Below, piece after piece: positions 1,048 to 35,179 of a stretch of DNA of 49,935 bases. Position numbers and translations under genes: made by a program. Where the stretch lies: contig CADAYJ010000043.1 in the NCBI GenBank assembly GCA_902792115.1, positions 1-49,935 of the forward strand, written 5' to 3'. The notes beneath the pieces are model-generated. The model was not told the origin of the DNA and searched no databases. It saw only the letters and a list, made by a program, of their open reading frames with translations. The first letter of the stretch is position 1, and each line of letters opens with the position of its first letter. The DNA comes from an uncultured Ruminococcus sp. GTDB taxonomy: Bacteria > Bacillota > Clostridia > Oscillospirales > Acutalibacteraceae.

Positions 1048-1062
1048 AAAGCACGTCTCCTT

Positions 1063-1257: not shown

Positions 1258-1277
1258 ACCGCATCATATTCCGCAAA

Positions 1278-1317
1278 AAACACCGGCTCAGCGATACAGC
1301 GCTCGGAACCGGTGTTT
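1278..1317 (-). terminator. Intrinsic terminator after the S41-like gene
   Basis: AAACACCGG (1278-1286) pairs perfectly with CCGGTGTTT (1309-1317). On the minus strand the stem is followed by a T run (A tract at 1275-1280). It begins 4 bp after the stop codon of the S41-like gene. Confidence 0.85.
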
Positions 1318-1321
1318 AAAT

Positions 1322-2623: not shown

Positions 2624-2690
2624 CTCGAAAATTCACTCCTTGATCTTTTCTTCGTTGTCGCATAATAGTATAATTGCATATCAAAACTAT

Positions 2691-2718
2691 TTTATACCAT
2701 TACAAGGCCGGTTGTCAA
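2691..2718 (-). promoter_or_regulatory. Sigma-A promoter of the S41-like gene
   Basis: On the minus strand TTGACA (2713-2718) and TATAAA (2691-2696) are separated by 16 bp, a near-consensus housekeeping promoter about 70 bp upstream of the ATG. This makes the S41-like gene its own transcription unit. Apart from it, the 307-bp gap between the M23 and S41 genes shows only a weak GCTCC/GGAGC hairpin. Confidence 0.8.
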
Positions 2719-2930
2719 CATAAAAATCCTTGTTCCGGCAATATTCGGATATATTTGGTAAAATTGGACAGTTAGAAAGAATCGAACAATATGAATAACT
2801 AAAAGTTTGCCTCTGAAAGTGAAGTCTTTCGGAAGCATATCGGAATTTACACCTCATATGCTCCGTTTTATCCGGAATCAGGAGCGATCCGCCGACATAC
2901 TCGCCGCCGCACCGAACGCAATGCCTCCGG

Positions 2931-4421
2931 TCAGATATTCGGATACTCGTTCATCGGGTTGTATTTTTCGCCGTCGAGGCGCGTCTCGAAGTGGAGGTGA
3001 GGACCTGTTGACCAGCCGGTCGATCCGACGTAGCCTATAAGCTGCCCCTTCTGGACGTAGTCGCCCGAGCTTACAACGGCAGCCGTGAGGTGTCCGTAAA
3101 CGGTCGCCTTTCCGTTGCCGTGGTCTATCATTACCCATCTGCCGTAGCCGCCGCCGCAGCCGCAGCTTCCGTCCTTGCCGTAATTGTGGTCGCAGTCGTT
3201 CTCCGCGATAACGACGACGCCGCTGTCCGCCGCGACGACGTCCGCGTTCATTATGGAGCCGTCGGAAATGTCGATCGCGCCGTGGTTATACGTCGTTCTG
3301 TCCTCGTTCCATACGGAGGAAAGGATGTAATGCCCCGGAACAGGCCAGACGTAGCCGTCCGACGGATCGGAAACGACCTGCTGAGGCTTGCTCGGCTCAG
3401 CCTGCGAGCTTTCCTCTGCCTTGCTCTCCGGCGCACGGCTCTCTTCGGCTTTGCTCTCCGGCTCGCTGCTGCGCGGCTCTTCGTCGTCCGGATCGTAATA
3501 CTCCGGCTCCTCGTCCTCGGCGTCGCTGCTCTCGGCCTCGTGGCTCGTTGAGCTGCTCTTTGAGGACGCCTCGGGCTTTCCAAGCTCATACGTCTTCGTT
3601 GTGACGGCGGCCTTCGAGCTTGCCTGCTCGGCGAGCTTCTTCTGCGCCTCGCTCGCGATCCTTGCCGTCTCCTCCTGCGCCTTCTTGTCCTTGAAGTACG
3701 CCTGGATCTGCGCCTCTACCTTCTTCATCTCCTCGTTCGTTTCGTCGAGGTGATCCTGCGCGCCGGAGTTTTCTTTATAAAGGTCGGTGAGCAGCTTCTC
3801 GTTTTCGGCGATGAGCTTCTGCATCTCCTGCTGGCGCGAATCGAGATTCTTCTGCTCGTTCGCAAGCTCCGTTTTCATCGCCTTGAGATTGTCGCGCTTA
3901 CCGTTTATTACTTCAATGTCCGCCTGCAGGTCGCCGATCAGCGCCTGATCCGACTTGGAAATGTACGTCAAAAGCTCCAGCTTGTCAAGGAAATCGGAGA
4001 AATCCTTCGCGCCGAGAATTATCTCCAGGCTCGTCGCGTCGCCGGATATGTAAAGCGCCCTTACGCGCTGCTTGAGCTTGTCTATCCTGCCGGAGATGGC
4101 GCTCCTCGACTCGTCGATATCCGCCTGGAGTCCGGCGATCTCCGTATCGAGCGCTTCTATCTGCGCTCTGCCGTTGGCGATCTGCTCGTTGAGGACGGTG
4201 ATCTTGCTCTGCAGCGCCTTTTTGTAATCCTCGCGCTGCGCGATATCGCTCGCCGTGGAATCAATCTTCGCCTGGTACTGCGCCGCCTGCTCGTCAAGCT
4301 CCTTCTGGCGCTTCTGATAGTCGGAGAGCGTGTCCGCGGATGAAACGACAGCCGCTGCCGCACCGATCATGCTCAGGCAAAGCACGCCTGCCGCGAGCTT
4401 TAACATCAGTTTACCAGCCAA
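2931..4421 (-). CDS. Coiled-coil M23 peptidoglycan hydrolase (EnvC/PcsB-like FtsEX partner)
   Basis: The 496-residue product has a signal peptide (about 1-30), a long coiled coil (about 31-265), a low-complexity acidic Ser/Glu/Pro linker (about 280-350) and a C-terminal M23 domain (about 357-496). Zinc-site motifs look intact: HGAID (HxxxD) and GPHLHFE (HxH). An unusual Cys/Gly-rich insert containing CDHN and CGCGGGYG sits before the GRWVMIDHG strand. The start is a TTG just after GGAGGAGA and overlaps ftsX by 11 bp. The order ftsE-ftsX-hydrolase is that of systems where FtsEX, an ATP-driven membrane complex, pulls a coiled-coil partner to activate septal wall cleavage. Intact zinc residues suggest it is itself a hydrolase, unlike classical EnvC. 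The direct link to FtsEX is inference from operon order and architecture. Confidence 0.9.
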   Translation of the reverse strand: MAGKLMLKLAAGVLCLSMIGAAAAVVSSADTLSDYQKRQKELDEQAAQYQAKIDSTASDIAQREDYKKALQSKITVLNEQIANGRAQIEALDTEIAGLQADIDESRSAISGRIDKLKQRVRALYISGDATSLEIILGAKDFSDFLDKLELLTYISKSDQALIGDLQADIEVINGKRDNLKAMKTELANEQKNLDSRQQEMQKLIAENEKLLTDLYKENSGAQDHLDETNEEMKKVEAQIQAYFKDKKAQEETARIASEAQKKLAEQASSKAAVTTKTYELGKPEASSKSSSTSHEAESSDAEDEEPEYYDPDDEEPRSSEPESKAEESRAPESKAEESSQAEPSKPQQVVSDPSDGYVWPVPGHYILSSVWNEDRTTYNHGAIDISDGSIMNADVVAADSGVVVIAENDCDHNYGKDGSCGCGGGYGRWVMIDHGNGKATVYGHLTAAVVSSGDYVQKGQLIGYVGSTGWSTGPHLHFETRLDGEKYNPMNEYPNI

Positions 4422-5310
4422 GGATCTCTCCTCCCTCCATGTTGAGATATCTGCCGATCGAGATCAGGGCGCCGACTGCGCCGACGACCATGCCGAAGAG
4501 GATAAATCCGCCCGTCATCTCAACGGCGAGCTGATCGTACGGTATCTCCGTGATCGGAACTATATACTTGACCGCCGTCATCATCGCCTCGTAAAGGAAC
4601 GCGATAATACACGACGCAAGTACGCCGGAGATAAGCCCCAGAACGATACCCTCGATCACGAACGGCGTCCTTACGAAGTGATTCGTCGCGCCGACCGACT
4701 TCATTATGCTGATCTCGAAGCGGCGGGAATACATCGTCATTCTTACCGAGTTGCTTATAATGAAAAGTGAAACGATGCCGAGCGCGGCGACGAGCCACAG
4801 CCCGACCTGCGTGACGAGCCTGTTGAGATCCGTCAGGCGCTTCGCGACCTCGCTTCTGTCGCTTATCATGTCTACTCCCTCGACGGATTTGATCGACTTG
4901 ACCGTCTCGCCGTACTGCGAGAGGTCTACCATCGTCACGTGGAATGCGTTCGGGAGCGGATTTTCCTCGCCCTGCAGCTCGCCGAAGAGCGGTCCCAGCT
5001 CGCTCTCCCATTCCGTTATCGCCTGATCCTTTGAGTAGAATTCGCAGTCGCAGATATTGTCGAGGTGACGTATTTCGGGGCCGACCTTCTGGATCGCGGT
5101 CAGCTCGTCGATATCGTCCTTCAGAAACACGGTGATCTGGTTGTCCTTGCCGACCTGCTCGACGACATTGTTTACGTTGAGCGAGATAAGCATAGCGGCG
5201 CCCGTTATGAGCAGGCACGAAACGAGGACGCCGATCGAAGCCGCCGACATCATTCTGTTGTTCCAGACGCTGCGAACGCCTTCCTTCGATAAGTATCCGA
5301 AGCCTCTCAT
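4411..5310 (-). CDS. ftsX: Cell-division ABC transporter permease FtsX
   Basis: The 299-residue protein has the FtsX topology: a first membrane helix near residues 20-45, a large extracellular loop (about 46-165) and three C-terminal helices (about 170-195, 220-245, 265-290). The conserved segment around RRFEISIMKSVGATNHFVRTP precedes the penultimate helices. FtsX anchors FtsE and transmits ATP-driven motion to extracellular hydrolases. Start and stop codons overlap with ftsE (ATGA), so translation is coupled, and the M23 gene starts inside its 3' end. Confidence 0.95.
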   Translation of the reverse strand: MRGFGYLSKEGVRSVWNNRMMSAASIGVLVSCLLITGAAMLISLNVNNVVEQVGKDNQITVFLKDDIDELTAIQKVGPEIRHLDNICDCEFYSKDQAITEWESELGPLFGELQGEENPLPNAFHVTMVDLSQYGETVKSIKSVEGVDMISDRSEVAKRLTDLNRLVTQVGLWLVAALGIVSLFIISNSVRMTMYSRRFEISIMKSVGATNHFVRTPFVIEGIVLGLISGVLASCIIAFLYEAMMTAVKYIVPITEIPYDQLAVEMTGGFILFGMVVGAVGALISIGRYLNMEGGEILGW

Positions 5311-6125
5311 TCCTCTGCCGCCTCCCCGTCTGTTATCGCTTCAAGCGCCTCGCGGTTAAGCTCCTCCTCGGAGACGTCGGGGATCTCCTCCGCTATCTCC
5401 TCCGGGATCTCCGCCAGCTGCTCCTTCGAGATCTCGATCGGGATCTCTGCCTTTTCCGACGGTGCGCCTGTGTCTGAGATCACCCGTCCGCCCTGTATCT
5501 CGATCACTCTGTTCTTGAATTTCTGCACAAGGTCGTGCTCGTGAGTAACGACGATTATCGTCGTTCCCTGCTTATTGATCTCATTGAGCAGCTCAATGAT
5601 CTCGAACGACATTTCGGGATCTATGTTGCCCGTAGGCTCGTCCGCGATGATAAGCGACGGGTTGTTTACGAGCGCGCGCGCAAGGCTGACTCTCTGCTGC
5701 TCGCCGCCGGAAAGCTCCGCGGGACGGCTCTGAGCCTTGTCCTTGAGTCCGACAAGTCCGAGGATATAATGGACTCTCTTCTTAACGGCGCGCGGACGCG
5801 CTCCGATAACGCGCATTGCAAACGCGACGTTGTCGAAGACCGTCATCTTGTCTATCAGCCGGAAATCCTGGAAGACGATGCCCATCGTTCTGCGAAGGTA
5901 CGGCACCTTGCGGCGCTTCATATCCGTTGTATTTATGCCGTTGATGTAGATAGTGCCGGAGCTCGGCTGCTCCTCCTTCATAATGAGCTTTAAAAAGGTG
6001 CTCTTGCCCGCGCCGGAGGCACCGACGATAAAGACGAACTCGCCCTTCTCGATCGTGATATTCACATCGTCCAGCGCCTGCGTCCCGTTCGGGTACACCT
6101 TTGACACATTTTTGAATTGGATCAT
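5307..6125 (-). CDS. ftsE: Cell-division ATP-binding protein FtsE, with acidic C-terminal extension
   Basis: I place the start at the ATG at 6125 (MIQFKNVSKVYPNG), which has an AGAGGCGG ribosome site. An ATG 42 bp upstream lacks one. The resulting 272-residue ABC ATPase has Walker A GASGAGKST (35-43), signature LSGGEQQR, Walker B LIIADEPT and an H-loop THEHD. FtsE is the cytoplasmic ATPase of FtsEX. Known FtsE proteins are about 220-230 residues; this one carries about 45 extra residues of acidic sequence rich in EIPEEI-type repeats, whose role I cannot assign. It is the first gene of the ftsE-ftsX-M23 run; no clear promoter was found upstream. Confidence 0.94.
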   Translation of the reverse strand: MIQFKNVSKVYPNGTQALDDVNITIEKGEFVFIVGASGAGKSTFLKLIMKEEQPSSGTIYINGINTTDMKRRKVPYLRRTMGIVFQDFRLIDKMTVFDNVAFAMRVIGARPRAVKKRVHYILGLVGLKDKAQSRPAELSGGEQQRVSLARALVNNPSLIIADEPTGNIDPEMSFEIIELLNEINKQGTTIIVVTHEHDLVQKFKNRVIEIQGGRVISDTGAPSEKAEIPIEISKEQLAEIPEEIAEEIPDVSEEELNREALEAITDGEAAEE

Positions 6126-6204
6126 AAAATTAGCCGCCTCTCGCGAAATCAATAATTTTGTCATCATGTGCTTTGACAGCTGCGCACATTCCGCATTAAT
6201 AAAC

Positions 6205-6238
6205 GGGAATGTAATGAAGAAGGCTCAATTACATTCCC
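6205..6238. terminator. Perfect hairpin between the PucR-like gene and ftsE
   Basis: GGGAATGTAAT (6205-6215) pairs perfectly with ATTACATTCCC (6228-6238). It lies 30 bp beyond the stop of the PucR-like gene. On the minus strand it is followed by GTTTATT, a weak U run. It probably terminates or stabilises the regulator transcript. Confidence 0.6.
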
Positions 6239-6267
6239 TTGCTTTTTCAATGATTCTTTGTTTGGTA

Positions 6268-7353
6268 TCAGTACTTGACCGGGTTAGCGGTGAGGTACTT
6301 CTTGACCATCAATGCTACCTTAAAGACGATCGCGTCTTCAAACTCTCTGAGGTCGAGACCTGTGAGCTTCTTGATCTTCTCAAGCCTGTACACGAGCGTG
6401 TTGCGGTGTACGAAGAGCTTTCTTGAAGTCTCGGAGACGTTGAGGTTGTTCTCGAAGAACTTCTGGATCGTGAAGAGAGTCTCCTGGTCGAGCGAATCTA
6501 TCGAGCCCTTCTTGAAGACCTCGTTGAGGAACATCTCGCACAGCGTCGTCGGAAGCTGATAAACAAGGCGCGCGATGCCGAGGTTGTCGTAGCTTGCGAT
6601 GGTGCGCTCGGTGTCGAACACCTTGCTGACCTCGAGAGCCACCTGAGCCTCCTTGAACGAATGAGCCAGCTCCTTCACGCCGACAACAGCCGTGCCGATG
6701 CCGATGATGCAGTGTGTGTAGAACTCGCTGGAGAGCGTGTCCACGATAGAGCTTGCCAGCTTTTCAAGGTCGCGCGAGTCGATGCCGGACTTGACCTCCT
6801 TAACGAGCGCGATGTCGGTCTCGTTGATATTGATAACAAAGTCCTTGCTCTTGTCCGGGAAAAGGTTCTGGATAACATCATAAGCGGAGATGTCCGTCTT
6901 GGAGGTGATCTTGATGAGCATACATACTCTCGTTACCTCGTTATTGAAGCGAAGCTCTCTCGCCTTGATGTAAATATCGCCGGGAAGAATATTGTCAAGA
7001 ATTACGTTCTTGATGAAGTTGCCTCTGTCATACTTCTCGTCGTAATACTGCTTGATGCTGCTGAGCGAAACGGCAAGAAGCTGAGCGTACTTCTGAGCCG
7101 CATCGTCGCTGCCCTGTACGAATACAGCGTATTCCGACCTGGAGTTGCAGCTGAAGCTCTTGAAGGTCTGCCCGTTTATTACGAACGGCGCCGATGAACT
7201 GAGCGTTTCCGACGTGATACTGTCGTTTACCTCTCCGATCCTGCCAAGCTCACTGCAGGCGATGACCACCGATGTTTCGTCGATAACGCCGATCGTTCTG
7301 TCGATCGCATCTCTCATCTGGTGAATGACGCCCTGGAACAATCTGTTGGACAT
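6268..7353 (-). CDS. PucR/CdaR-type transcriptional regulator
   Basis: The 361-residue protein ends in a PucR C-terminal helix-turn-helix (about residues 290-355), recognised from the NVSETSRKLFVHRNTLVYRL segment followed by KKLTG and the EFEDAIVFKVAL helix. The middle (about 130-260) resembles the GGDEF-like regulatory fold of CdaR-family proteins, including GIGTAV and SFKEAQVALEV. Family members respond to small molecules such as sugar diacids or purine metabolites; the ligand and targets here are unknown. It is upstream of ftsE on the same strand but separated by a perfect hairpin, so it is probably monocistronic, with its own promoter upstream. Confidence 0.85.
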   Translation of the reverse strand: MSNRLFQGVIHQMRDAIDRTIGVIDETSVVIACSELGRIGEVNDSITSETLSSSAPFVINGQTFKSFSCNSRSEYAVFVQGSDDAAQKYAQLLAVSLSSIKQYYDEKYDRGNFIKNVILDNILPGDIYIKARELRFNNEVTRVCMLIKITSKTDISAYDVIQNLFPDKSKDFVININETDIALVKEVKSGIDSRDLEKLASSIVDTLSSEFYTHCIIGIGTAVVGVKELAHSFKEAQVALEVSKVFDTERTIASYDNLGIARLVYQLPTTLCEMFLNEVFKKGSIDSLDQETLFTIQKFFENNLNVSETSRKLFVHRNTLVYRLEKIKKLTGLDLREFEDAIVFKVALMVKKYLTANPVKY

Positions 7354-7447
7354 AGTAATGATCCCTCTCTTTTTATTTGAATTTAGTTTGTTCGTTAATG
7401 TCCGGCATTTGTTTCAATATTGTAACCAACATTGTGCAAAAAAGCCT

Positions 7448-7477
7448 ATTATCATATTAATGATACACAATTTTCAA
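7448..7477 (-). promoter_or_regulatory. Probable promoter of the PucR-like gene
   Basis: On the minus strand TTGAAA (7472-7477) and GATAAT (7448-7453) are 18 bp apart, in the AT-rich gap upstream of the regulator. The rest of 7354-7603 is A/T-rich with no other site I can support. Confidence 0.5.
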
Positions 7478-7603
7478 ACAAAAAGCAACCTTTTAAAGTC
7501 AAAAATATAAAAAAATCTTAAAAAATTTCTCCCAAATTGCAAAAAAAGACGATTTTTTTCTCGTTTTTTCTATTTTGACCATAAAAAAGCCGTTCCGGGC
7601 GCA

Positions 7604-7759
7604 TTATTTTACCTTGATCGACTCAACGAGCGAAATAAACTTTCCTGGATCTTTTATTATAAAAATGTACACAAGATACGCCACGCCGAAAACAACGGCA
7701 AGCGTGATCACCAGGCTTATCAAAGTTTTGAGTGTTTCCTTCCATTTTGAGCTGTCCAT
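7604..7759 (-). CDS. 51-residue single-pass membrane peptide
   Basis: This short open frame begins MDSSKWKETLKTLIS and contains one strong hydrophobic helix (about residues 12-36), ending with a charged tail SIKVK. Its ATG follows a perfect GGGAGG ribosome site eight bases away, and the frame is free of stops throughout. This supports a real small gene although it is easily missed at this length. No family is recognised. It lies between the PucR-like regulator and the DUF3783 gene, all on the minus strand, with a weak CCG/CGG hairpin plus T6 just after its stop. Confidence 0.65.
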   Translation of the reverse strand: MDSSKWKETLKTLISLVITLAVVFGVAYLVYIFIIKDPGKFISLVESIKVK

Positions 7760-7910
7760 AAACAAACCTCCCGTCAAACGGCATTCAAAACCTGCGAACG
7801 GTTTGATTTTACACCGAAAATATTATCAAAATTTGAATTTTTGTCGTCCATTTTGAAAACTGCGTCGTTCCGGCGCTCACAGATGTGCAGACGCCTCCCC
7901 TTCGGCAGCC

Positions 7911-8291
7911 TTATCCGGCGCCCTTCATCGCCTCGTGCTCTGCTTTAATCTCTCCGAAGAGGCGTGCAGGAGTCCAGCAGGCGTTCGTTTCCGTCACAAC
8001 AGCCTTATAAGGTATCCTTCCGACGCCGCCGCGATACAGCGCGCCGATGAGAATGTCTATCCCCTCTCCGGAGAACCCGTTTATCACGAGCATCTCGCAG
8101 CCGAAGTCTCCGCCGTCCGGCTGCTTTAAATGCGGAATGCCGGGAACGCCGGCGAGCGCTCCGACGGGCAGCGCGTACTCCTTTTTTGAAACGGTCCTAA
8201 CGGTGCAGCCGAGCGGCGCCACGGCGTTTTTAACGAGCGCCGCACGCTCGCTCCCGAAATTATAGAGCAGAAGTATTTTGTTTGTTTTCAT
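7911..8291 (-). CDS. DUF3783 family protein
   Basis: I place the start at the ATG at 8291 (MKTNKILLLYNF), which has a GGAAGGAG ribosome site. The upstream extension in the same frame is Arg-rich and lies inside the neighbouring gene. The 126-residue protein resembles the DUF3783 family: an N-terminal beta strand LLLYNF, a central conserved region and the C-terminal motif PYKAVVTETNACWTPARLF. The function is unknown. It overlaps the 3' end of the EamA transporter gene by 32 bp, implying cotranscription. Confidence 0.75.
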   Translation of the reverse strand: MKTNKILLLYNFGSERAALVKNAVAPLGCTVRTVSKKEYALPVGALAGVPGIPHLKQPDGGDFGCEMLVINGFSGEGIDILIGALYRGGVGRIPYKAVVTETNACWTPARLFGEIKAEHEAMKGAG

Positions 8292-9315
8292 TTTCTTTCT
8301 CCTTCCCCGTGTGGCGGCGGTTAATGACGAATATTCCCGCCGCAACGAGCGCGCCGGCGGCGGCATAATTCGGGCGAAGCGGCTCTCCCAGCAGCAGGCA
8401 CGAGAACGTAACGCCGAGAATCGGTATAAGCGAATTGAATATCGCGATCTCTCCGACGGGATTGCAGCTTATCAGCTTATTGTACACGGAAAAGCCGTAC
8501 GTCGATATCGCGACAAGGCAGCAGAGAACGAATGCGCCGAACGCACCGGGCGCCCGGAGACGTCCGCCCATCAGAAGACCTGCCGCGATGAGAATCACTC
8601 CGCCGAAGCCGAGGCTGACTCCCGTTGCCGCTCCTGCCATAACGCCGGCGCCTCTCCCGGAGCGCGACGTAACGACACGTGTGAGTATTCCGCCGCACGC
8701 CGAAAAGCAGGCGCTCAGAAGCAGCATACCGTCGCCCATGAACGACAGCTCCGACGACGCGCCCCCGGCGTTCACGAGCAGTATCCCGGCAAAGCCGAGC
8801 ACGCAGCCTGCCGCCTTCCTCACCGTGAGGCGCTCGTCACGGAAAACGGCGCACGCGGCAAGTATCAGCAGAAAGCTGGAGAGCGAATCTATGACGGCGG
8901 AGCGCGAGCCGGTGAGATTTGAAAGACCGATATAGTAGCAGAAGTAGTGCAGCGCCGTATTGACAAGCCCGAGCAGCAGCGCAAGGAGAACGCCGCGCCG
9001 CGCATTCTCTCCGAAGGGGCGGGCAGCGCCCTTCCTGTCCGCGCCCGGACGGCTCTGCGTATTATGTATTGTCCGATTTGCCTCTGCCCGACGCGCGATC
9101 GTCGGGAGAACGACCGAGATGAAAGAGACAAGCAGCCCTGCCGCCGCAAAGCGCACGCCTGCAAACAGCGTTTTCGAGCCGGTATCGTCCGGCGCGATCC
9201 CGAATGCGGGGATCCCGAGTTTTATCAGCGGAAACGCGAACGCCCACACAACGGAGGTCGAAGCCGCCAGCACCATCGCAGGCAGCTTCCTTTCAAACAA
9301 GCTACGATTATCCAA
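8260..9315 (-). CDS. EamA/DMT superfamily transporter
   Basis: The 351-residue protein has about ten hydrophobic helices arranged as two EamA repeats, with the typical ends GLVNTALHYFCYYIGLSNLTGSR in abbreviated form and a second repeat finishing FSCLLLGEPLRP. This is the drug/metabolite transporter superfamily, usually small-molecule exporters in the cytoplasmic membrane; the substrate is unknown. The start appears to be a TTG at 9315, about 23 bases after the predicted transcription start of a strong promoter. A low-complexity charged stretch (about residues 70-105) interrupts the first repeat and is longer than usual. The downstream DUF3783 gene overlaps its end. Confidence 0.88.
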   Translation of the reverse strand: MDNRSLFERKLPAMVLAASTSVVWAFAFPLIKLGIPAFGIAPDDTGSKTLFAGVRFAAAGLLVSFISVVLPTIARRAEANRTIHNTQSRPGADRKGAARPFGENARRGVLLALLLGLVNTALHYFCYYIGLSNLTGSRSAVIDSLSSFLLILAACAVFRDERLTVRKAAGCVLGFAGILLVNAGGASSELSFMGDGMLLLSACFSACGGILTRVVTSRSGRGAGVMAGAATGVSLGFGGVILIAAGLLMGGRLRAPGAFGAFVLCCLVAISTYGFSVYNKLISCNPVGEIAIFNSLIPILGVTFSCLLLGEPLRPNYAAAGALVAAGIFVINRRHTGKEKENENKQNTSAL

Positions 9316-9344
9316 GCTATCGCCTCTGAAATCATGATACGTCC

Positions 9345-9373
9345 ATTATACCACAACACCCCCTCACACGCAA
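9345..9373 (-). promoter_or_regulatory. Promoter of the EamA/DUF3783 unit
   Basis: Minus-strand TTGCGT (9368-9373) and TATAAT (9345-9350) have a 17-bp spacer and a TGG extended -10. The predicted transcript begins near 9338, close to the TTG start. Confidence 0.75.
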
Positions 9374-9377
9374 CCTG

Positions 9378-9625
9378 CGGCGTGTCACCGGCGGCGTGTC
9401 GCCGCTCACAGTTCCGGGCGGCGTGTCGCCGCTCACAGTTCCGGCGGAAGAATTTATAAATCAAAACCCGTCTCCGCGTCTGACACATCTTGCGGCGTGT
9501 AACTCACGGTTTTCAGCGGAAGTATTTTATAATTCAAAACCCGTCTCCGCGTCTGACACATCTTGCGGCGTGTAACTCACGCTTTCCGGCGGAAGTATTT
9601 TTAAATTAAAAATCCGTCCGGGCGT
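9378..9625. repeat. 73/74-bp tandem repeat block beside the DnaA-box array
   Basis: Units starting with CGGCGTGT occur at 9378, 9392, 9419, 9493 and 9566. The full units at 9419 and 9493 are 74 and 73 bp and share long runs such as CAAAACCCGTCTCCGCGTCTG. The first two are truncated (14 and 27 bp) and the last decays near 9625. No coding frame spans the block. Confidence 0.85.
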
Positions 9626-9717
9626 CCGTAAATACCCGTATAGCCTTTACACCGGGGGGCGGCAAAAAACGCGAATACGCATCCGGGAGCGTCCTATGTA
9701 ACACCATGCGGGGATAA

Positions 9718-10070
9718 TTATTTCACGTTTGTAATAATTAATACATATTTGTAATTTCATTTCTCTAAAAGCATTAAAAGTTAAAAAATTTACAATAAAA
9801 CGCCGAAATTAATTAAAATTTGAATTCTTATTGACACGGCTTCTATTACCTGTTGTTATAATCTTTTTCTAACATTCCACTTACTTTTCCACATATGAAA
9901 TGTTGATGAAGATTATCCACACCGTTGAAACCGTAACAATTCGACGTCTATCGCAAATCTTTCATGGGTTATCAACTCTTTCCACAGAGTTTTCCACATT
10001 ATCAACAGCGTTTTCCACTTTACAAATAGTAATATCATGGAGAATCTGCGCGCTTTTCCACATCGGTGTT
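9718..10070. other. Candidate replication origin / DnaA-box cluster with AT-rich tract
   Basis: An A/T-rich tract (about 9718-9850) is followed by nine DnaA-box-like 9-mers, all on the plus strand. They are TTTTCCACA at 9885, the perfect TTATCCACA at 9913, TTATCAACT at 9969, CTTTCCACA at 9978, TTTTCCACA at 9990, TTATCAACA at 9999, TTTTCCACT at 10011 and TTTTCCACA at 10054, plus a weak CATTCCACT near 9873. Every gene to the left reads leftward, and the first genes to the right read rightward. No gene overlaps it credibly. This layout (AT-rich unwinding element plus phased boxes) matches bacterial oriC. However, dnaA, dnaN and rpmH are not in the window, so a secondary DnaA-binding locus is the main alternative. 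Confidence 0.6.
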
Positions 10071-10201
10071 TTTTGACCATATTTCCGAGGTGATTTTTGG
10101 CGCACAACAACATTTAGTTGTAAAAAAAAGGAATGAACACAACACGTACGGGGCATACTATCTTTGCAAAAGAAACAAAATTGTTACAAAGGAGAAACAT
10201 T

Positions 10202-10465
10202 ATGATAAAAGCGATCAGCAGGCAAATCCTCGAGGTCTCCGACACGGGCAGCATATATTTTGCGAAGGCGTGGCTGATGATAAGCCCCGAATACGCCGAC
10301 GAGGACGAGCAAAAGCTCGAGGGCGAAGCGGAGAGATACCTTTGCTCGATCGACGCGCCCGGCGCCGTAAAGAGCCGAAGCCGCACCCTTCGCCGCGTTA
10401 TGCGCTTCCTCGCTTCCGCTGCCTGCGGCGGGCTTGTCACGGCGATGTTCCTTAAAGTATACTGA
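10202..10465 (+). CDS. Small C-terminally anchored protein next to the DnaA-box cluster
   Basis: The start is the ATG after AAAGGAGAAACATT, giving 87 residues. The N-terminal two thirds is polar (EVSDTGSIYFAKAWLMISPEY, acidic 36-45), followed by an Arg-rich stretch (about 58-67) and a hydrophobic C-terminal helix (about 68-84). I do not recognise the family and claim no function. It is the first rightward gene after the candidate origin. A terminator-like hairpin lies 190 bp downstream. Confidence 0.65.
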   Translation: MIKAISRQILEVSDTGSIYFAKAWLMISPEYADEDEQKLEGEAERYLCSIDAPGAVKSRSRTLRRVMRFLASAACGGLVTAMFLKVY

Positions 10466-10656
10466 CGGCGGCGCGGAAAAATGCAGGCTCCTTTGGGAGT
10501 CTCCCTCTTCCGGGCTGCCGCTCCAATGAACCGGCACCGCGAAAAGCAGCGCAGCCGGACTTTTGTCCGTTTTGCTCAAGCGGATCGCCGTCCGAAGCGA
10601 GCGTCCGAAGATAAGATATCTTACGCTCCGAATATTCTGTCAAAAGCTGAGAAAAA

Positions 10657-10700
10657 AGCGCCGAAAGCAGGCAGATCAAGCGGCTTTCGGCGACTTTTTT
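10657..10700 (+). terminator. Intrinsic terminator before the c-di-GMP gene
   Basis: GCCGAAAGC (10660-10668) pairs with GCTTTCGGC (10683-10691), followed closely by T6 (10695-10700). The remaining gap 10466-10942 also holds an AGCGT/ACGCT inverted repeat around a TAAGATATCTTA palindrome (about 10590-10630), and ATCATGTTGT near 10771 complementary to sequence near 10868. No known riboswitch was recognised. Confidence 0.8.
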
Positions 10701-10942
10701 GGAGAAAAATTTCATTTTTTTGCTTTTGGGGATATAAATTTTTAGGAAAATATGATATAATAATATGGATTATCATGTTGTGCTGACGCCGTGGGTTTTT
10801 GCATCTCTCAGATACGTATTTTTTGCCTGAGCCTGCGGCAATTACTGCAAAAGATACATCTTAAATACAACATGAATTTCTTGCGCTTTTACTGCTTCGA
10901 TATATTACTGACTGATCGTTTTTGAATAGGAGGGACCGCTTC

Positions 10943-13900
10943 ATGGGAAGAGATCTTGATACATTCATTATACAGAATTATAAAAAAGCGATGGAGTATC
11001 ACGAGATACAGACATTTTATCAGCCGGTTATCCGCACGTCCTCGGGGCAGCTTTGCAGCTTTGAGGCGCTTGCGCGTTGGATCGATCCGAAGATCGGCAC
11101 GATCTACCCGAATGAGTTTATCCCCGTTCTTGAACGCGAAGGGCTTATCCATCTGTTCGACCTCACGATCATCAGGCAGGTCTGCGCCCGTCTTCGCGCC
11201 TCGCTTGCGAACGGAGAGCCGCCTATTCCTGTCTCAGTCAACCTGTCACGGCTCGATTTTACGCTCTGCGACATCTTTACCGCCGCAGACGATATAGTCA
11301 GCGACTATCAGATCCCTCATGACTTCATTTATTTTGAGATCACAGAAAGCGTCATAGCAGAGGAAAAGGAGCTGATGAAGGGGATCGTGGAGCAGTTCCG
11401 CTGTGCAGGGTATCAGATATGGATGGACGATTTCGGAAGCGCCTATTCGTCGCTGAACGTCCTGAAGGAGTTCTCCTTTGACGAGCTCAAGCTGGACATG
11501 AGCTTCCTGCGCCCGTTCAACCTGCGCTCCAGGCGCATCGTGACCGCAATGATCAGAATGGCGAAGGATATCAATATCCACACGCTGGCGGAGGGCGTTG
11601 AAACGGAGGAGCAGTTTGTTTTTTTAAGGGATATCGGCTGTGAAAAGGTTCAGGGCTATTATTTCGGCAAGCCTATGCCCTTTGAAGACGCCGTTGCCGG
11701 CCTCGGCAAAAAGGAGATAGAGATCGAGGCTCCGCAGGACAGAACGTATTACGACGACATCGGAACGATAAATTTTCTAAGCGCCGTTCCGTTCATGACG
11801 CGCGAGGAGAAGGATTCTCTCTATTCGGCAAGGCAGCTCAACAGTATTCCCCTGATGCTCGCGGAGTTCTCCGCCGACTTCTTCAAGGTGCTTTTCTACA
11901 ACACGGAATTTGAAAAGATGACCAACAATTCCGGTATGTTCAACAGCGTGTTCACGCAGGAAACGCTCTGTAAGCCGCAGCCTTACCGCAAGATTTCAAA
12001 AAACATCATTAACCTCATGGACGCTGTCAGAGCCGCCGGAGAAGTCAAAAAGCTCTTTGCGATACACGACAAGTATTTTGAGATCACGGCGCGCTGTATG
12101 ACGCAGACGAAGGAAAAATACTGCGTGCTGGTGCGCGTCACAAATCTCACGAACGAGAAGAAATCGGACAAGACGGGATTCCTCGACGATTCTGTCCGTC
12201 AGATCTACGCTCTGTATGACCGCGTCACCGTTATGAATTATGCCGAGGACAGTATCACTCCTTTGTATACAGACAAATCGGCAAACATGATCTCCGGCAG
12301 GCAGGGCATCAAGCAGCTTGTGGAGGAATACGCGGAGAAATTTATTTTCCCTGAGGACAAAGACAGATTTGCCCATGTTTTCGATCCGAAAACGGCGGTA
12401 AAACGCCTTACGGAAAGCGCGAGCATCAGCTTTTCCGAAGTGTTCCGAACGGGCGTCGGTCACGGAAATTACGCCTGGTTCGAGTACACTCTGCTTCATG
12501 TCAGCAACGACGACTATTTCCTGCTTGTCCGAAATATCCACGACATCGCAAAGGATTTTATAAAGAATAACGCGCAGCGGCTCACAAGCTCAGGTCCGTA
12601 TTCACCGGAGCAGCTCTGGAGCAACCTGACGCGCTCCTCGATAATCCGCGTTTTTTGGAAGGATCAGGACCGAAGATTCCTCGGCGCGTCGAAGGGCTTT
12701 CTGGACTTTTACGGTTTCTCGTCCGCGAACGAGATCATCGGCAGGAACGACGAGGAGCTGGGCTGGCACGTACATCCCGACCTCTACATGAACGACGAAT
12801 ACAAGGTCATAAACGAGGGCGTGACGATACAGAATATCCCCGGAAAATGTATCAGCCACGGTGAAAACATAGATATCCTCGCAAGCAAAACTCCTTTGTA
12901 CGACGAGAACGGAAAGATCACGGGGCTGCTCGGCTGCTTCATTGACAAGGAGTCGCTCAGCGCAAACGATCAGGCAGGGCGCGACTACTCCCGCAGAGAG
13001 CTTCTCACAGGTCTGCTCAACTCACGCGGCATCTCGGAGCAGTCAGAGGCATTTTACGACGAATACTATCTGCGCGGCACAGACTTCGTGCGCTTTCACA
13101 TCGGCATCAACGACTTCAGCACGATCAACGAACAGTACGGCTTCGATTTCGGAGACAAGGTGCTTTACACCTTCGGCAGCGCGCTCAGCCGGGACTTCGG
13201 TCTTAACAGCGCGATCGGACGGTATGCAGGGCGCAAGTTCATTATACTCCAGCAGGTCGGGAGCAGAGAGGAAGCGCGTGAGCTCTGCAAAAGGATAAAA
13301 TCAATCGCCGACTCTATCCGCCACGTTGACGGGAAGCCGATCACGCTCTACCTTTCCGTCGGGTATGCGCTCTTTTCGGAATCTCTCGATCTGAACGAGC
13401 AGGCAAAGAGCGCCGAGATGCGGCTTCACGCCGATCACGATAAAAACATTTCGGCGGAAAACAGGATCGAACACGCCTCCGAGCTTTTCTCTCTGTTTGA
13501 CGATCTCCCTGTCATATACTCCGTGTATCACGTTACTCACGCAGAGCACAGCGGACAATACGACGCCGTTTTCTTCTACGTCAACCGCAAATACGAGGAT
13601 TTCGCCCGTCTTCCGGCGAAGGCGCTGGTTGGTCATACGGTCAGGGATATCTTCCCATTCTTCGGGGAAGACTGGTACTTTGACGTCAAAAGCGCCGCGC
13701 TAGACGGCAAGATCGTAGAGGGTGAATTCGACGGCCCGTTGAAGGAACAGCGTTTTCGCTTCACAGCGCGACAGATACTCTACCCCGGCTACTGCGCGAT
13801 CACCTGCACGGAGCTGCCTGTGATAAAGAGGCGCAGATACCTTCTGATAGCAGACGACGCCGAAAGCAACCGCAGGATACTCGGCAGCCTGCTTTGCGAC

Positions 13901-14620
13901 GAGTATGAGATCTATTATGCCTGCGACGGCGTCGAGACGATGGAGCTGCTTCAAAAGCACAAGGACGAGATCGCGCTGGTTATTCTCGACCTGTATATGC
14001 CGAATATGTCCGGGCAGGAGGTCCTTGCCCGTATGAAGCACGACGACGACCTGATGTTTATTCCGACGATCGTTCTGACCGACGATCAGGACGCGGAGCT
14101 TGACTGCCTGAAAATGGGCGCGATGGACTTTATCCCGAAGCCTTATCCCGATATCAAGATCGTCAAAGCGAGTATTGCAAAATGTATCGAAATGTCGGAA
14201 AACCGTGAGCTGATACGAAACACATATTACGATAAGCTGACAGGTCTTCTCAACGCCGATCACTTTATGCAGTATGTCACTCAGTACGATCATCACGAAA
14301 AAGGGACAGCCTTTGACGCCTATTTCTGCGATGTAAACCGGTTCTCCGAAATGACAAAACTGCACGGACAGGATTTCTCCGACCGCGTACTTCACTGCGT
14401 CGGCGCAGGGATCAATGATACGGAAAACGGGCGGCATCGGCTGCAGAAAAGAGGGAGACACATTTCTCTTTTACTGTCCTCATCAGAACGACCACGAGAG
14501 GCTGCTCAGGGAGCTTCTGGACAGCGTTTCTTCCGACGGGGAGACGGCAGGCAAATTCAGCCTGAGACTCGGAGTTTACTTAAATGCTCAGCAGGAGCCG
14601 GATATCGACGAGCGCTTTGA
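10943..14620 (+). CDS. EAL-PAS-GGDEF-like-PAS-REC c-di-GMP signalling protein (frameshifted near its end)
   Basis: The ATG at 10943 follows AGGAGGG. The frame codes for about 1225 residues. The order is: an EAL domain (about 18-255) with intact motifs (EALAR at 41-45, SVNLS, FEITES, MDDFG, ELKLD, AEGVETEEQ, VQGYYFGKP), so c-di-GMP phosphodiesterase activity is plausible; a middle region; PAS (about 559-670); a GGDEF-like domain (about 682-845) whose signature reads YAGRKF and is probably inactive; a second PAS-like region (about 850-952); a REC domain (about 966-1090) with ADD, phospho-acceptor D1016 in LDLYMP and a PKP lysine; and a second degenerate GGDEF-like domain from about 1096. From about 14405 the reading frame departs from the domain, which resumes in the +1 frame. 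No cognate kinase is adjacent. It appears cytoplasmic, with no membrane helix seen. Confidence 0.88.
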   Translation: MGRDLDTFIIQNYKKAMEYHEIQTFYQPVIRTSSGQLCSFEALARWIDPKIGTIYPNEFIPVLEREGLIHLFDLTIIRQVCARLRASLANGEPPIPVSVNLSRLDFTLCDIFTAADDIVSDYQIPHDFIYFEITESVIAEEKELMKGIVEQFRCAGYQIWMDDFGSAYSSLNVLKEFSFDELKLDMSFLRPFNLRSRRIVTAMIRMAKDINIHTLAEGVETEEQFVFLRDIGCEKVQGYYFGKPMPFEDAVAGLGKKEIEIEAPQDRTYYDDIGTINFLSAVPFMTREEKDSLYSARQLNSIPLMLAEFSADFFKVLFYNTEFEKMTNNSGMFNSVFTQETLCKPQPYRKISKNIINLMDAVRAAGEVKKLFAIHDKYFEITARCMTQTKEKYCVLVRVTNLTNEKKSDKTGFLDDSVRQIYALYDRVTVMNYAEDSITPLYTDKSANMISGRQGIKQLVEEYAEKFIFPEDKDRFAHVFDPKTAVKRLTESASISFSEVFRTGVGHGNYAWFEYTLLHVSNDDYFLLVRNIHDIAKDFIKNNAQRLTSSGPYSPEQLWSNLTRSSIIRVFWKDQDRRFLGASKGFLDFYGFSSANEIIGRNDEELGWHVHPDLYMNDEYKVINEGVTIQNIPGKCISHGENIDILASKTPLYDENGKITGLLGCFIDKESLSANDQAGRDYSRRELLTGLLNSRGISEQSEAFYDEYYLRGTDFVRFHIGINDFSTINEQYGFDFGDKVLYTFGSALSRDFGLNSAIGRYAGRKFIILQQVGSREEARELCKRIKSIADSIRHVDGKPITLYLSVGYALFSESLDLNEQAKSAEMRLHADHDKNISAENRIEHASELFSLFDDLPVIYSVYHVTHAEHSGQYDAVFFYVNRKYEDFARLPAKALVGHTVRDIFPFFGEDWYFDVKSAALDGKIVEGEFDGPLKEQRFRFTARQILYPGYCAITCTELPVIKRRRYLLIADDAESNRRILGSLLCDEYEIYYACDGVETMELLQKHKDEIALVILDLYMPNMSGQEVLARMKHDDDLMFIPTIVLTDDQDAELDCLKMGAMDFIPKPYPDIKIVKASIAKCIEMSENRELIRNTYYDKLTGLLNADHFMQYVTQYDHHEKGTAFDAYFCDVNRFSEMTKLHGQDFSDRVLHCVGAGINDTENGRHRLQKRGRHISLLLSSSERPREAAQGASGQRFFRRGDGRQIQPETRSLLKCSAGAGYRRAL

Positions 14621-14897: not shown

Positions 14898-15455
14898 TCA
14901 TTTGATCATTGAGGGATCGACGGCGAGGAAGACGGCTTCTATGATCTTGTACATCGCAAATGAGAATGTAATCCCGATCAGAATACCGCACACAACGTCG
15001 GTCAGGTAGTGCGCCTGAAGATAGAAGCGCGAGAAGGAGATGCCGATCGCCAGGATCAGCACTATGATCGTCAGCCAAAGCTCGCAGTGAAGCATTATAA
15101 GCGTCAGCATCGCGAACGACGTCGCGGAGTGGCTCGACGGAAACGAGAAATACTTCGGTATCCTCTTTAAAACGAGATTTTCCTCGTCGATCTTGTGGCA
15201 CGGTCTGACTCTGCCGACGATACGCTTTATGATTACCTCCGAATTCACAAACGCAAAAAGCACGCTGATGAGTACCGAAAGTGCGACGTAAAGCGAGCGC
15301 GTGGTAAAGATAACGAACGCCCAGACCACGATCCATATCTTGCCCTGGTCGCCCAGAAATGTCAGAAATCTCATAAGGCTGTTCAAATACGGGCGGTGCA
15401 GCACCGCGACCTTTTCGATCAGCCTGTCGTCGGCTGCCTTGATCTTTTCCAGCAT
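14898..15455 (-). CDS. PAP2-family membrane phosphatase
   Basis: I prefer the start MLEKIKAADDRLIEK at 15455, giving 185 residues. A longer frame to 15569 adds a basic stretch without a clear ribosome site. About five hydrophobic helices carry the three PAP2 signature motifs: KRIVGRVRP (KX6RP), FPSSHS (PSGH-like) and SRFYLQAHYLTD (SRX5HX3D). Such enzymes dephosphorylate lipid phosphates, including undecaprenyl or phosphatidyl-glycerol phosphate, at the membrane; the substrate here is not determinable. Monocistronic, with paired terminators and a family A repeat 130 bp upstream. Confidence 0.9.
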   Translation of the reverse strand: MLEKIKAADDRLIEKVAVLHRPYLNSLMRFLTFLGDQGKIWIVVWAFVIFTTRSLYVALSVLISVLFAFVNSEVIIKRIVGRVRPCHKIDEENLVLKRIPKYFSFPSSHSATSFAMLTLIMLHCELWLTIIVLILAIGISFSRFYLQAHYLTDVVCGILIGITFSFAMYKIIEAVFLAVDPSMIK

Positions 15456-15585
15456 ATTATCACCGTTATTCGTTACAATTCCCTTGCTCCGGCCCTTGCT
15501 GAACCGGCGTCGAAAAAAGTGCTTCAACGGTCTAATTATATCACAACTGCGGAAATAAAACAAGGGCAATACCGCACAAAGGAAG

Positions 15586-15668
15586 CGCCAACAAATGCGC
15601 TGCCGGATTTTTCGTCAGATTGTACTAAACAACCGTCAAATTCCCGTGATATTTCAAGGGAGTTGAAT
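15586..15668 (+). repeat. Interspersed repeat family A, diverged copy
   Basis: The stretch shares TCAGATTG, then a spacer, and the end segment ATATTTCAAGGGAGTT with the copy at 39532-39627, but the leading CACTGATTAAA edge has decayed. It lies between the PAP2 start and the SpoVAD stop. Confidence 0.55.
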
Positions 15669-15773
15669 CCATATCACGCACGCAGCTGAGGAGAGGCGCG
15701 CTGTTCAGTCGATTGTACCGAAGCGCCCGGAGATCAGGGCGCATCAAGGCACGGCGACGCCTCCTTATTTTCG

Positions 15774-16847
15774 TCAGTCTGCACAATTTACAAGGTGAAC
15801 AATGTGCGAAATGCCGGGTATACTCTCGCCCTGCTGCACTATCGTAGGACTCATAAGCGCGCCCGTCGCGGCGAAAAGGACGTTTGAAAGCTCGCGCTTC
15901 CTCATTTTTTTCAGTATATACGAGCAGAGGACGGAGGCGCTGCAGCCGCAGCCCGAGCCGCCGGCGTGAACGTCCTGCGCCTCAAGGTCGAAGATCATCA
16001 GTCCGCAGTCGTTGTGGCGCGGCCGCAGATCGACGCCTTCCTTTTCCGTAAGCTCGTAAAGAAGCTGTGAGCCGACCTTTCCAAGATCTCCCGTGACGAT
16101 CAGATCGTAGTCCTCCGGCTTCGTGCCGGTATCCTCGAGATATCGGTAGATGGTGTCGGCTGCAGCGCCTGCCATCGCGGCGCCCATGTTGTTCGCGTCG
16201 GTGACGCCCATATCGACGATCCTGCCGCAGCAGACGTGTGCAACGCCGATCTGCCGGGCGATGTGAGCGCCGATCTTCGACAGACTCTCGTTCTCGGCAA
16301 GAAACGCGCCGTTTTCGTAAGCCGCGACGAGAACGCAGCCCGAGCCTGTCACGGTCCACTGAGCCGTCGGAGTGCGCTGTCCGCCGTATTGCAGAGGGTA
16401 CCGGAACTGTCGCTCCGCCGAGCAGAAGTGAGACGACGTAACCGCCGCCGCGATATCGGCAGCGCCGCTCTCCGTAACGACGGACGCAAGCGCGAGAGTC
16501 TGCGCCATCGTCGAACACGCGCCGTACTGACCGATAAAAGGAATACCAAGCTCGCGCAGACCGTAGCTCGACGAGATGCACTGATTGAGCAGATCGCCGG
16601 CGAAAACGCAGTTTACGGCGCTGCTCTCAATGTGGGCGCTCTCCAGCGCAAGACCGACCGCCTTCCTCTGCAAAGCCGCCTCCGCCTTCTCCCACGTCTC
16701 GCCGCCCATCGTCGTATCAGTGAAAATTTTATCGAACCACGACGCAAGCGGCCCCTCGCCCTCTTTTTTGCCGACAGCCGAGCCGAATCCCACGACGCGC
16801 GGCATTCCCGTAAGCTCCAGCGTCCTTTCTCCCATTCGTTTTATCAT
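15774..16847 (-). CDS. spoVAD: Stage V sporulation protein AD (SpoVAD)
   Basis: From the ATG at 16847 (MIKRMGERTLELTGMPRVVG) the product is 357 residues, near the usual ~340. It has the thiolase-like fold of SpoVAD, including YGACSTMAQTLALAS, the ERQFRYPLQYGGQR segment, TGDLGKVG and GGSGCGCSASV. In Bacillus, SpoVAD binds dipicolinic acid and works with SpoVAC/SpoVAE in moving it into the forespore. Here spoVAC and spoVAE are not adjacent: the gene is flanked by a PAP2 gene and a divergent helical-bundle gene. No clear sigma-G promoter was found in the gap 16848-17104. Confidence 0.92.
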   Translation of the reverse strand: MIKRMGERTLELTGMPRVVGFGSAVGKKEGEGPLASWFDKIFTDTTMGGETWEKAEAALQRKAVGLALESAHIESSAVNCVFAGDLLNQCISSSYGLRELGIPFIGQYGACSTMAQTLALASVVTESGAADIAAAVTSSHFCSAERQFRYPLQYGGQRTPTAQWTVTGSGCVLVAAYENGAFLAENESLSKIGAHIARQIGVAHVCCGRIVDMGVTDANNMGAAMAGAAADTIYRYLEDTGTKPEDYDLIVTGDLGKVGSQLLYELTEKEGVDLRPRHNDCGLMIFDLEAQDVHAGGSGCGCSASVLCSYILKKMRKRELSNVLFAATGALMSPTIVQQGESIPGISHIVHLVNCAD

Positions 16848-17104
16848 AAAAACCAGCCTTTCTGTTTTTCCGTTATTATTTAACAGCTTCGCCGGTAAAT
16901 GCAAGGAAAAAGGTGGAAGGAATACTTTCACCGCTGCCGGGTACAATAATTCCACCATCAGTCACTATTCGGCATCCTCCGCTTAAAAACAAAAATCAAA
17001 TATTTTCATTACGATTTTTTCCTCTCAGCGGTATCCGAAGGGTGCTAAGGGGCTGCCGAACAGTTACCGTCATAAAAAAAACCGCCCAAACGGCGGAGGA
17101 AAGG

Positions 17105-17560
17105 GTGTTAGCTTTGGCACAAAAGATCATCAACAGCGATACGATTAAGCTGCTGCGCGAGTGCAGCGCCGGAATACAGATGGGCATAGAGTCGATCAAA
17201 GAGGTGCTGCCGGACGTCAAAAGCGACGAGCTGCGCGGTATCCTGGAGGACTGCAAGCGCAAGCACGAGGAGCTTTGGCAGGATACGACCGATATTCTGA
17301 ACGACTACGGAGACAGCGGCAAGGAGCCTCCGGCGGTCGCTTCCGGTATGTCGTGGCTCAAAACGACGTTCAGGCTGACTGTCGATCCGTCTGATTCAAC
17401 CGTCGCCGACCTCATGACGGACGGCTGCGATATGGGCGTGAAGTCGATCAGGCGCTATCTGAATCAGTACGCAGCCGCCGAGGACAAGGTGAAGCAGCTT
17501 GCCGAGAGACTCATCGTGATCGAGGAATCCGCAGCCGATGAGATCAAGAAGTTCCTGTAA
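17105..17560 (+). CDS. Helical-bundle protein, possibly ferritin-like/DUF2383-like
   Basis: I choose the GTG at 17105, four bases after GGAGGA; a TTG at 17114 is the alternative. The ~151-residue product is almost entirely amphipathic helix with four predictable helices (about 6-40, 45-75, 98-125, 128-150) joined by short loops. The third includes TVADLMTDGCDMGVKSIRRYL. This layout resembles small ferritin-like or DUF2383 proteins, but no metal-binding Glu/His pattern is certain. It is divergent from spoVAD, and a CCGCC/GGCGG hairpin overlaps its ribosome site. The function is unknown. Confidence 0.75.
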   Translation: MLALAQKIINSDTIKLLRECSAGIQMGIESIKEVLPDVKSDELRGILEDCKRKHEELWQDTTDILNDYGDSGKEPPAVASGMSWLKTTFRLTVDPSDSTVADLMTDGCDMGVKSIRRYLNQYAAAEDKVKQLAERLIVIEESAADEIKKFL

Positions 17561-17579
17561 CAAAAAGATTTCTTTTTCA

Positions 17580-17625
17580 CACCGAGTTTTCAACAAGCCA
17601 ACGTGTCATTGTTGAAAACTCGGTG
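17580..17625. repeat. Perfect 17-bp inverted repeat in a convergent gap
   Basis: CACCGAGTTTTCAACAA (17580-17596) is perfectly complementary to 17609-17625 with a 12-base loop. It begins 19 bp after the helical-bundle gene's stop and is not followed by a T run. The arms contain TTTTCAACA, and TGTTGAAAA and TGTGGAAAA occur at 17731 and 17749, all resembling weak DnaA boxes. It may be a terminator or a protein-binding palindrome. Confidence 0.7.
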
Positions 17626-17759
17626 GAAACTGTTAATAAGTCTGTGAAATTATTATAATTGTTACAGAAAGATTACATATTATGTGGCATTATCGACTCT
17701 TTATTACAAAAGAATTACACAAATTTTGCGTGTTGAAAACTTTCCCTATGTGGAAAACA

Positions 17760-35155: not shown

Positions 35156-35179
35156 AACCGACAAAAGGAAGGTGACGGC

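Follow-up and report, generated by a model that had tools for sequence, protein, structure and literature searches.

A conserved DnaA-box cluster upstream of a small early-forespore-type gene in an uncultured Ruminococcus is probably a gene control region rather than a replication origin

The window analyzed here, i.e., the whole stretch of 49,935 nucleotides from an uncultured Ruminococcus sp. (contig CADAYJ010000043.1), contains a cluster of DnaA boxes flanked by a leftward-running EamA gene and a rightward-running one coding for an 87-aa protein, with an AT-rich tract preceding the boxes. This tract (9718-9870; 77-78% AT) shows conserved blocks and contains a promoter-like element (9831-9862). 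The earlier note had described it as about 130 bp long, which agrees with what we find: 9718-9850 is 78% AT and, of all 130-bp segments of the window, includes the one highest in AT, a tract at about 7440 being almost its equal. The note had also remarked on a switch in gene direction at this point, from nine leftward genes to rightward ones. The switch itself is there, with eight rather than nine Pfam-supported ORFs on the leftward side (268 to 9315). The first two genes past the cluster are rightward; since the genes for PAP2, spoVAD, and ABC-F at 14898-19364 run leftward again, the cluster marks a local divergence and not a switch between replication arms. Reading by eye shows imperfectly repeated units, GGCGTGTCGCCGCTCACAGTTCCGG and a longer one, in direct orientation at 9380-9600, between the EamA gene and the AT-rich tract. 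On the other side, a 1232-aa EAL-GGDEF-response-regulator protein (10922-14620) separates the small gene from PAP2, which directly follows the small gene in one relative (L037). Further along, where an ORF at 16913-17560 and the ABC-F gene at 17760-19364 converge, the intervening gap (17560-17760) holds inverted box-like repeats, GAGTTTTCAACA...TGTTGAAAACTC, followed by TTTTCCACA, and similar box-like words occur near ABC-F or spoVAD in three genus relatives (L037, 14513-14697; L038, 6804-6974; L040, 6604-6851); these repeats might form the hairpin of a terminator or serve as another site for DnaA. An Rfam search of 9300-11000 returned no match at the gathering score.

The cluster comprises five DnaA boxes with at most one mismatch, all on the + strand, within 9885-10062; with up to two mismatches allowed, there are eight boxes on the + strand (starting at 9885, 9913, 9969, 9978, 9990, 9999, 10011, and 10054) and one on the - strand (9901). 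The earlier note had counted one perfect box and eight near matches on a single strand: the total stands if the minus-strand site is included, and the count for the + strand was one too high. Reading from the AT-rich tract toward the gene, the row begins with TTTTCCACA (9885-9893, +), whose position is kept in the genus, and a weak box, TCATCAACA, with two mismatches (9901-9909, -), which lies near a Spo0A-box-like TGTCGAA in several genus relatives. There follow the perfect box TTATCCACA at 9913-9921 (+), exactly where the note had placed it, in the place of which most genus relatives have TTATCAACA, and a pair of abutting weak boxes, TTATCAACT and CTTTCCACA (9969-9986, +; two mismatches each), that is well conserved in the genus. 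Next come the abutting boxes TTTTCCACA and TTATCAACA (9990-10007, +), two words that also abut, in the reverse order, in the dnaA-dnaN gap, then a weak box, TTTTCCACT, with two mismatches (10011-10019, +), recognized by word match and in the genus alignment, and finally another TTTTCCACA (10054-10062, +), which is the box closest to a forespore-type promoter, its start lying 77 bp from the start of the -35 element. The Spo0A-box-like TGTCGAA gives nine hits at -350 to -100 in 16 genus loci and only 11 in 120 other loci, which we regard as a weak hint of Spo0A-box involvement.

Such a concentration of boxes is far from a chance expectation. Dinucleotide shuffles of the 201-bp segment yield a mean of 0.11 boxes and a maximum of two, so that five were reached in none of 3000 shuffles, and the window as a whole holds 16 sites with at most one mismatch against 4.98 expected (standard deviation 2.27, largest 12). 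Across the assembly (2.05 Mb in 114 contigs), the word TTWTCCACA occurs 61 times, as against 19 times for the reversed word; four of these lie within 178 bp at the cluster, which is thus the densest of the assembly, there being elsewhere never more than two within 250 bp. For the wider word TTWTCMACA (149 in the assembly against 30 reversed), the window cluster has five, and, among the matches listed (100 of the 149), contigs C25 and C27 each have three within 200 bp. Judged by these words and their retention in relatives, the box cluster is real and conserved.

The gene downstream of the boxes (10202-10465, +) codes for an 87-aa protein of an unnamed family, with a short β/α N-terminal part and a C-terminal hydrophobic helix that is a predicted tail anchor. 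The AlphaFold (AF2) model (mean pLDDT 82.9, pTM 0.49) displays three short strands, a helix at residues 36-49, and a long C-terminal helix at 58-86. The family fits none of the Pfam or NCBIfam models, the searches giving scattered weak matches (best E 0.002); a fold search recovered no match at E ≤0.001, and a search of PDB sequences no relative. The earlier note had set this small membrane protein aside as an unusual neighbor for an origin; in our analysis, it is the key gene of the locus. Of 150 family genomes, 110 have it, always as a single copy, and a profile search found it in 78 of 147 genomes of the order. Named relatives with the gene include Pseudoruminococcus massiliensis, Anaeromassilibacillus, Faecalispora jeddahensis, and Clostridium sporosphaeroides; in the NCBI taxonomy, Pseudoruminococcus and Anaeromassilibacillus belong to Acutalibacteraceae and Faecalispora to Oscillospiraceae, which makes the family name of the window's group a presumptive one. 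Among cultured relatives, F. jeddahensis and P. massiliensis each carry two boxes in the 400 bp preceding the gene. The gene tends to co-occur with spoIVA: in genomes with ≥90% completeness and ≤5% contamination, counted by hand with one genome placed by elimination, it is present in 79 of 105 with spoIVA and in 3 of 10 without (Fisher p=0.0057, a statistic that ignores kinship). The exceptions are the 26 spoIVA-bearing genomes of good quality that have no detectable version of the gene and the three spoIVA-less genomes that have it. A 257-aa membrane protein adjoins the gene in 52 of the 79 loci with flanks, being downstream in 51 of the 52. Searches for it in the window and in L037, L038, L040, and L189 gave no convincing match (best E 0.92), and as the boxes are present in these loci, the neighbor changes while the boxes stay.

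The boxes follow this gene across its relatives. We collected 159 loci, removed 20 duplicates with identical 120-bp upstream sequences, and, of the remaining 139, set aside three whose upstream sequence was shorter than 400 bp. From the 110 gene-bearing genomes of the family, 30 loci were obtained directly, together with 40 of the other 80, taken down the list with skips and so not at random; a DNA search supplied 16 genus loci; and the named genome records were picked by protein similarity alone. All these loci are related by descent and were counted without tree weighting. In the resulting 136 distinct loci, searched for five box words in the 400 bp upstream, at least one box is found in 112, at least two in 93, and at least three in 55, with 276 boxes on the strand of the gene against 59 on the other. 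The boxes mostly lie close upstream of the gene: 148 fall at -400 to -200 and 189 at -200 to 0, while -800 to -600 and -600 to -400 hold 18 and 13, and every other bin from -2000 to +2000 holds zero to five. Broken down by source (duplicates between sources being kept in), a box is seen in 17 of 17 loci from the genus, 45 of 59 from other genera of the family, and 70 of 80 from named genome records; two boxes are seen in 31 of the 59 and 61 of the 80. Within the genus, the region was recovered by DNA search from 18 of 21 relatives (the three without a match being G005, G008, and G009); the spacing of its boxes is fixed, and about 200 bp are conserved as a block. Seven of 86 loci that were unplaced by tblastn were read by coordinate, and five of these seven have a box. 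Outside the family, where 46 placed loci (12 with a box) were reduced to 44 by removing one family member and one duplicate, a box within 450 bp is seen in 10 of the 44 distinct loci, four of them with two or more. Because 24 of the 136 loci lack all five box words in the 400 bp upstream, 14 of the 59 loci from other family genera have no box, and so few loci outside the family have one, the gene does not need boxes everywhere. A dense array was noted in the relative L068 (G068:C2, about 34,600-35,260), with 18 boxes in the 600 bp upstream of the gene; the same genome has a second dense box array on another contig (G068:C19:28935-29205).

Between the last box and the gene lies a forespore-type promoter, GAATG-N18-CATACTA (10131-10160, +). 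Taken as a strict sigma-G pattern, this string recurs in only 6 of 78 loci (the window and five genus relatives), and we replaced it with a learned matrix, on which the site of the window scores 12.1. The motif so obtained from the 130 bp upstream of the gene is a two-block one, G[TA]ATAA-N14-GNCAANAMTA, with 13 or 14 nt between the blocks in 131 of 138 loci and a mean score of 15.4, as against 7.9-8.3 for eight shuffled sets and 11.3 for a null region that was refitted. A G precedes the -10 element in 88% of the motif loci (n=138), a feature also described for the sigma-F promoters of Clostridioides difficile (PMC3789822). The training loci reach a matrix score of 10 in 128 of 138 cases by construction; the sigma-F gene spoIIR, which was absent from the training, scores at least 10 in 27 of 30 loci from the genus, family, and order. 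Random 340-bp windows of the same genome, which are mostly coding DNA, attain this in 15 of 600 cases, and the harder control of natural 340-bp stretches with 66% AT gives 13 of 133 at -540 to -200 and 3 of 129 at -1140 to -800. SASP genes failed as a positive control, with scores of at least 10 in 3 of 20 loci with a short window and 3 of 18 with a longer one. By its motif, the promoter of the 87-aa gene is thus of the sigma-F type, i.e., an early-forespore promoter. In the species of the window, recognition by sigma-G is also possible, with CATACTA as the -10 element; its GAATG-N18-CATACTA is nearer to the sigma-G consensus. As CATACTA is sigma-G-like and yet the matrix finds only 3 of 18 SASP promoters, either factor may act in this species. 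Among 24 gene starts of the same genome, the sole one with a matrix score above 7 (14.9) lies at 2624-2753, upstream of an S41 peptidase ORF (1322-2623), the product of which may be a CtpB-like forespore protease.

A shared promoter type does not bring the boxes with it. spoIIR has the same promoter motif as the 87-aa gene but no box array: a single box is seen upstream of it in 2 of 20 loci and two boxes in none of the 20, and SASP genes have a box in none of 12 (the 20 of 30 and 12 of 20 loci from the genus and family with enough upstream sequence). At the level of box words, the array is therefore specific to the 87-aa gene among the forespore genes compared. The distance from the start of the nearest same-strand box to the -35 element ranges from 22 to 230 bp in 85 loci outside the genus, often being 45-48, 67-71, or 104-110 bp, and is mostly 75-77 bp within the genus; given this variation, one fixed activator geometry does not fit. 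Upstream of all the boxes, the window has a further element, TTGACA-N20-TATAAT (9831-9862, +), which resembles a vegetative promoter with a long spacer and whose columns are nearly invariant in the genus, so that here the boxes sit between a vegetative-like and a forespore-type promoter. The corresponding pattern TTGAC[AT]-N16-21-TAnnnT occurs in 13 of 15 genus loci, in 11 of these at -370 or -371; it is found within 600 bp in 34 of 118 other loci and is thus not general. A spacer of 20 bp is unusual for a promoter, and so long a spacer can mean that the promoter is bent by an activator.

The earlier note had proposed that the cluster is the chromosomal oriC, displaced from dnaA in a rearranged context. 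In favor of such a proposal, the boxes adjoin the AT-rich tract and the region is retained in most of the genus relatives; the note had named a lack of boxes in relatives as one sign against an origin, and the relatives keep them. The box words and the AT-rich neighbor are also what the window shares with the bipartite oriC of clostridia, spread over the rpmH-dnaA and dnaA-dnaN gaps (PMC7561715), but the canonical layout with its skew change and DnaA-trios is elsewhere in this genome and the window has neither. On contig C6, dnaA shares its strand with dnaN, recF, and gyrB, with yidC, jag, mnmE, and mnmG diverging from them and, as read from the contig sequence, rpmH and rnpA between the two groups. 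The GC-skew check that the note had proposed goes against it: the skew changes sign at the start of dnaA (-0.048 to the left, +0.090 to the right), whereas at the window cluster it is negative on both sides (-0.058 left, -0.025 right), and there is no sign change in the window. In the dnaA-dnaN gap, TTATCAACA abuts TTTTCCACA; beyond this pair come the box-like TTTCCAC, a spacer rich in C, and CTACTACTACTACTATTT, a run of CTA-type trios with a best DnaA-trio score of 15, as against 5 in the window, which has no comparable run. It is this gap, and not the window, that matches the layout of the basal unwinding system, namely DnaA boxes, a spacer, and then DnaA-trios, as set out in PMC8287927. The genus relative G003 likewise has a skew sign change at dnaA and a CTA run in the dnaA region, and dnaA and the cluster are on different contigs in all 18 genomes with both (this genome and 17 genus relatives). 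In the single-contig family genome G028, the orthologous gene lies in mid-arm, 146 kb from dnaA: the skew is positive in nine of nine sampled stretches from dnaA to 220 kb, which places the gene within one skew arm, and negative in the four readable of five sampled stretches from 2.2 Mb to the end, the other samples, from 300 kb on, being of mixed signs (e.g., at 300 kb it is -0.031, at 900 kb +0.063). A box pair near 12.5 kb of this genome, matched in the DNA search, does not adjoin the orthologous gene and was dropped. As skew, trios, and relatives all contradict it, we reject an origin in a rearranged context as extremely improbable; the cluster very probably is not the start point of chromosome replication.

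Another possibility is that the boxes form a DnaA reservoir near the origin, which soaks up or inactivates DnaA and delays re-initiation, with gene control being secondary. That the cluster is the densest of the assembly would suit this, as would its five consensus boxes, compared with two and one in the two gaps beside dnaA on C6, the 18 boxes of L068, and the proximity of the gene to dnaA in the three single-contig genomes that have it (146 kb of 2.54 Mb in G028, 181 kb of 3.01 Mb in G044, and 3 kb of 2.69 Mb in G273). It resembles datA, other DnaA-titration regions, and the box clusters of Bacillus in being a dense set of boxes outside oriC that is origin-near in these three genomes, but differs from datA-type regions in its association with a particular gene and promoter. 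Nothing would require a reservoir to keep to the upstream side of a single gene, mostly on one strand, and by its promoter; many loci have only one or two boxes; and three genomes are few, their origin-near position being one that may come from synteny. Hence, a regulatory array fits better than a titration site, and we consider a reservoir as the primary role unlikely. The origin-near part of the chromosome enters the forespore first in Bacillus, and a gene near dnaA would lie in that part; this is only a hint from three cases, and one that is also in keeping with a reservoir. In G273, a single-contig genome from another family of the order, several TTTTCAACA words are found upstream of the gene, which precedes dnaA by the said 3 kb (L243; G273:C1:2691562).

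Alternatively, the boxes might tether the origin-near part of the chromosome or load partners of DnaA during spore septation, with transcription not being the target. The forespore-type gene, the roughly 200-bp block that the genus conserves, reminiscent of a nucleoprotein site, and the origin-near position in the three single-contig genomes are all compatible with this, but tethering does not require a tie to the promoter of one gene and we know of no partner protein; we hold it to be very unlikely. It is also hardly probable that the words are bound by a protein other than DnaA or reflect a sequence preference of promoter regions. Binding by DnaA is predicted from the words, which leaves room for another protein, but identical words are found in the dnaA-dnaN gap, and reversed words are rare at the places where the boxes concentrate (3 and 5 against 148 and 189). 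A mere sequence preference is at odds with the regions upstream of spoIIR and SASP genes in the same organisms, which are nearly devoid of these words.

We therefore favor, as the probable explanation, that the cluster serves to control the 87-aa early-forespore gene through the binding of DnaA, in a way similar to sda, and is not a replication origin. From the boxes, their conservation and tie to the gene, the type of the promoter, and the canonical origin features elsewhere, all of which are read from sequence, we infer the binding by DnaA, the sign of the control, and a sporulation function of the protein. As is typical of a DnaA-regulated promoter, the array lies within a few hundred bp upstream of the promoter and is conserved with the gene. 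We propose that DnaA, whose binding is predicted, would coat the row of mostly same-strand boxes upstream of the sigma-F-type promoter, such that the forespore expression of the small membrane-anchored protein would vary with the level of DnaA or with its ATP state and thereby, by analogy with sda, with the replication state of the chromosome. Since the array is upstream of the -35 element, our guess, with a slight leaning, is that the bound DnaA would help the forespore promoter, as at the Bacillus sda, rather than act by simple steric repression. In the genus of the window, DnaA bound downstream of the vegetative-like promoter would also block read-through in growing cells.

In B. subtilis, DnaA is an activator of sda and an apparent repressor of several operons, and at low concentration in vitro about 50-fold more DNA of the sda region was recovered with ATP-DnaA than with ADP-DnaA (PMC4447404). 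The sda gene, as described in PMC4447404 and PMC8203912, resembles the 87-aa gene in having a cluster of DnaA boxes upstream of a small sporulation-related gene, but its product inhibits the phosphorelay before the onset of sporulation, while the 87-aa protein is predicted to be membrane-anchored and has a forespore-type promoter. The latter is not a member of the Sda family (PF08970), having no Pfam match, and the Sda model finds nothing above its cut-off in 60 family genomes, with one weak match below it. The best reading of these similarities and differences is that the 87-aa gene works like sda and is unrelated to it.

To our knowledge, how sporulating clostridia, many of them uncultured species of the gut and rumen, ensure that the forespore receives a properly replicated chromosome is poorly understood. 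The open-licence literature that we searched for DnaA together with Acutalibacteraceae, box clusters in Clostridia, the forespore, sigma-F, or checkpoints showed no description of the present arrangement. For programs that locate origins, the locus is a caution, as the densest box cluster of an assembly is here not oriC. More tentatively, and with more doubt than confidence, one might see in it a forespore replication checkpoint of an Acutalibacteraceae-type family, in which DnaA at a sigma-F-type promoter would switch a small tail-anchored protein and so couple the replication state of the origin-near region to the next step of spore formation; if true, the role that Sda and SirA have in Bacillus would here have been invented independently. 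A box array on one early-forespore-type gene in most of the sampled genera of a large family offers a concrete and testable connection of this kind, and the cluster with its promoter suggests that spore formation is linked with DNA replication in these gut and rumen bacteria.
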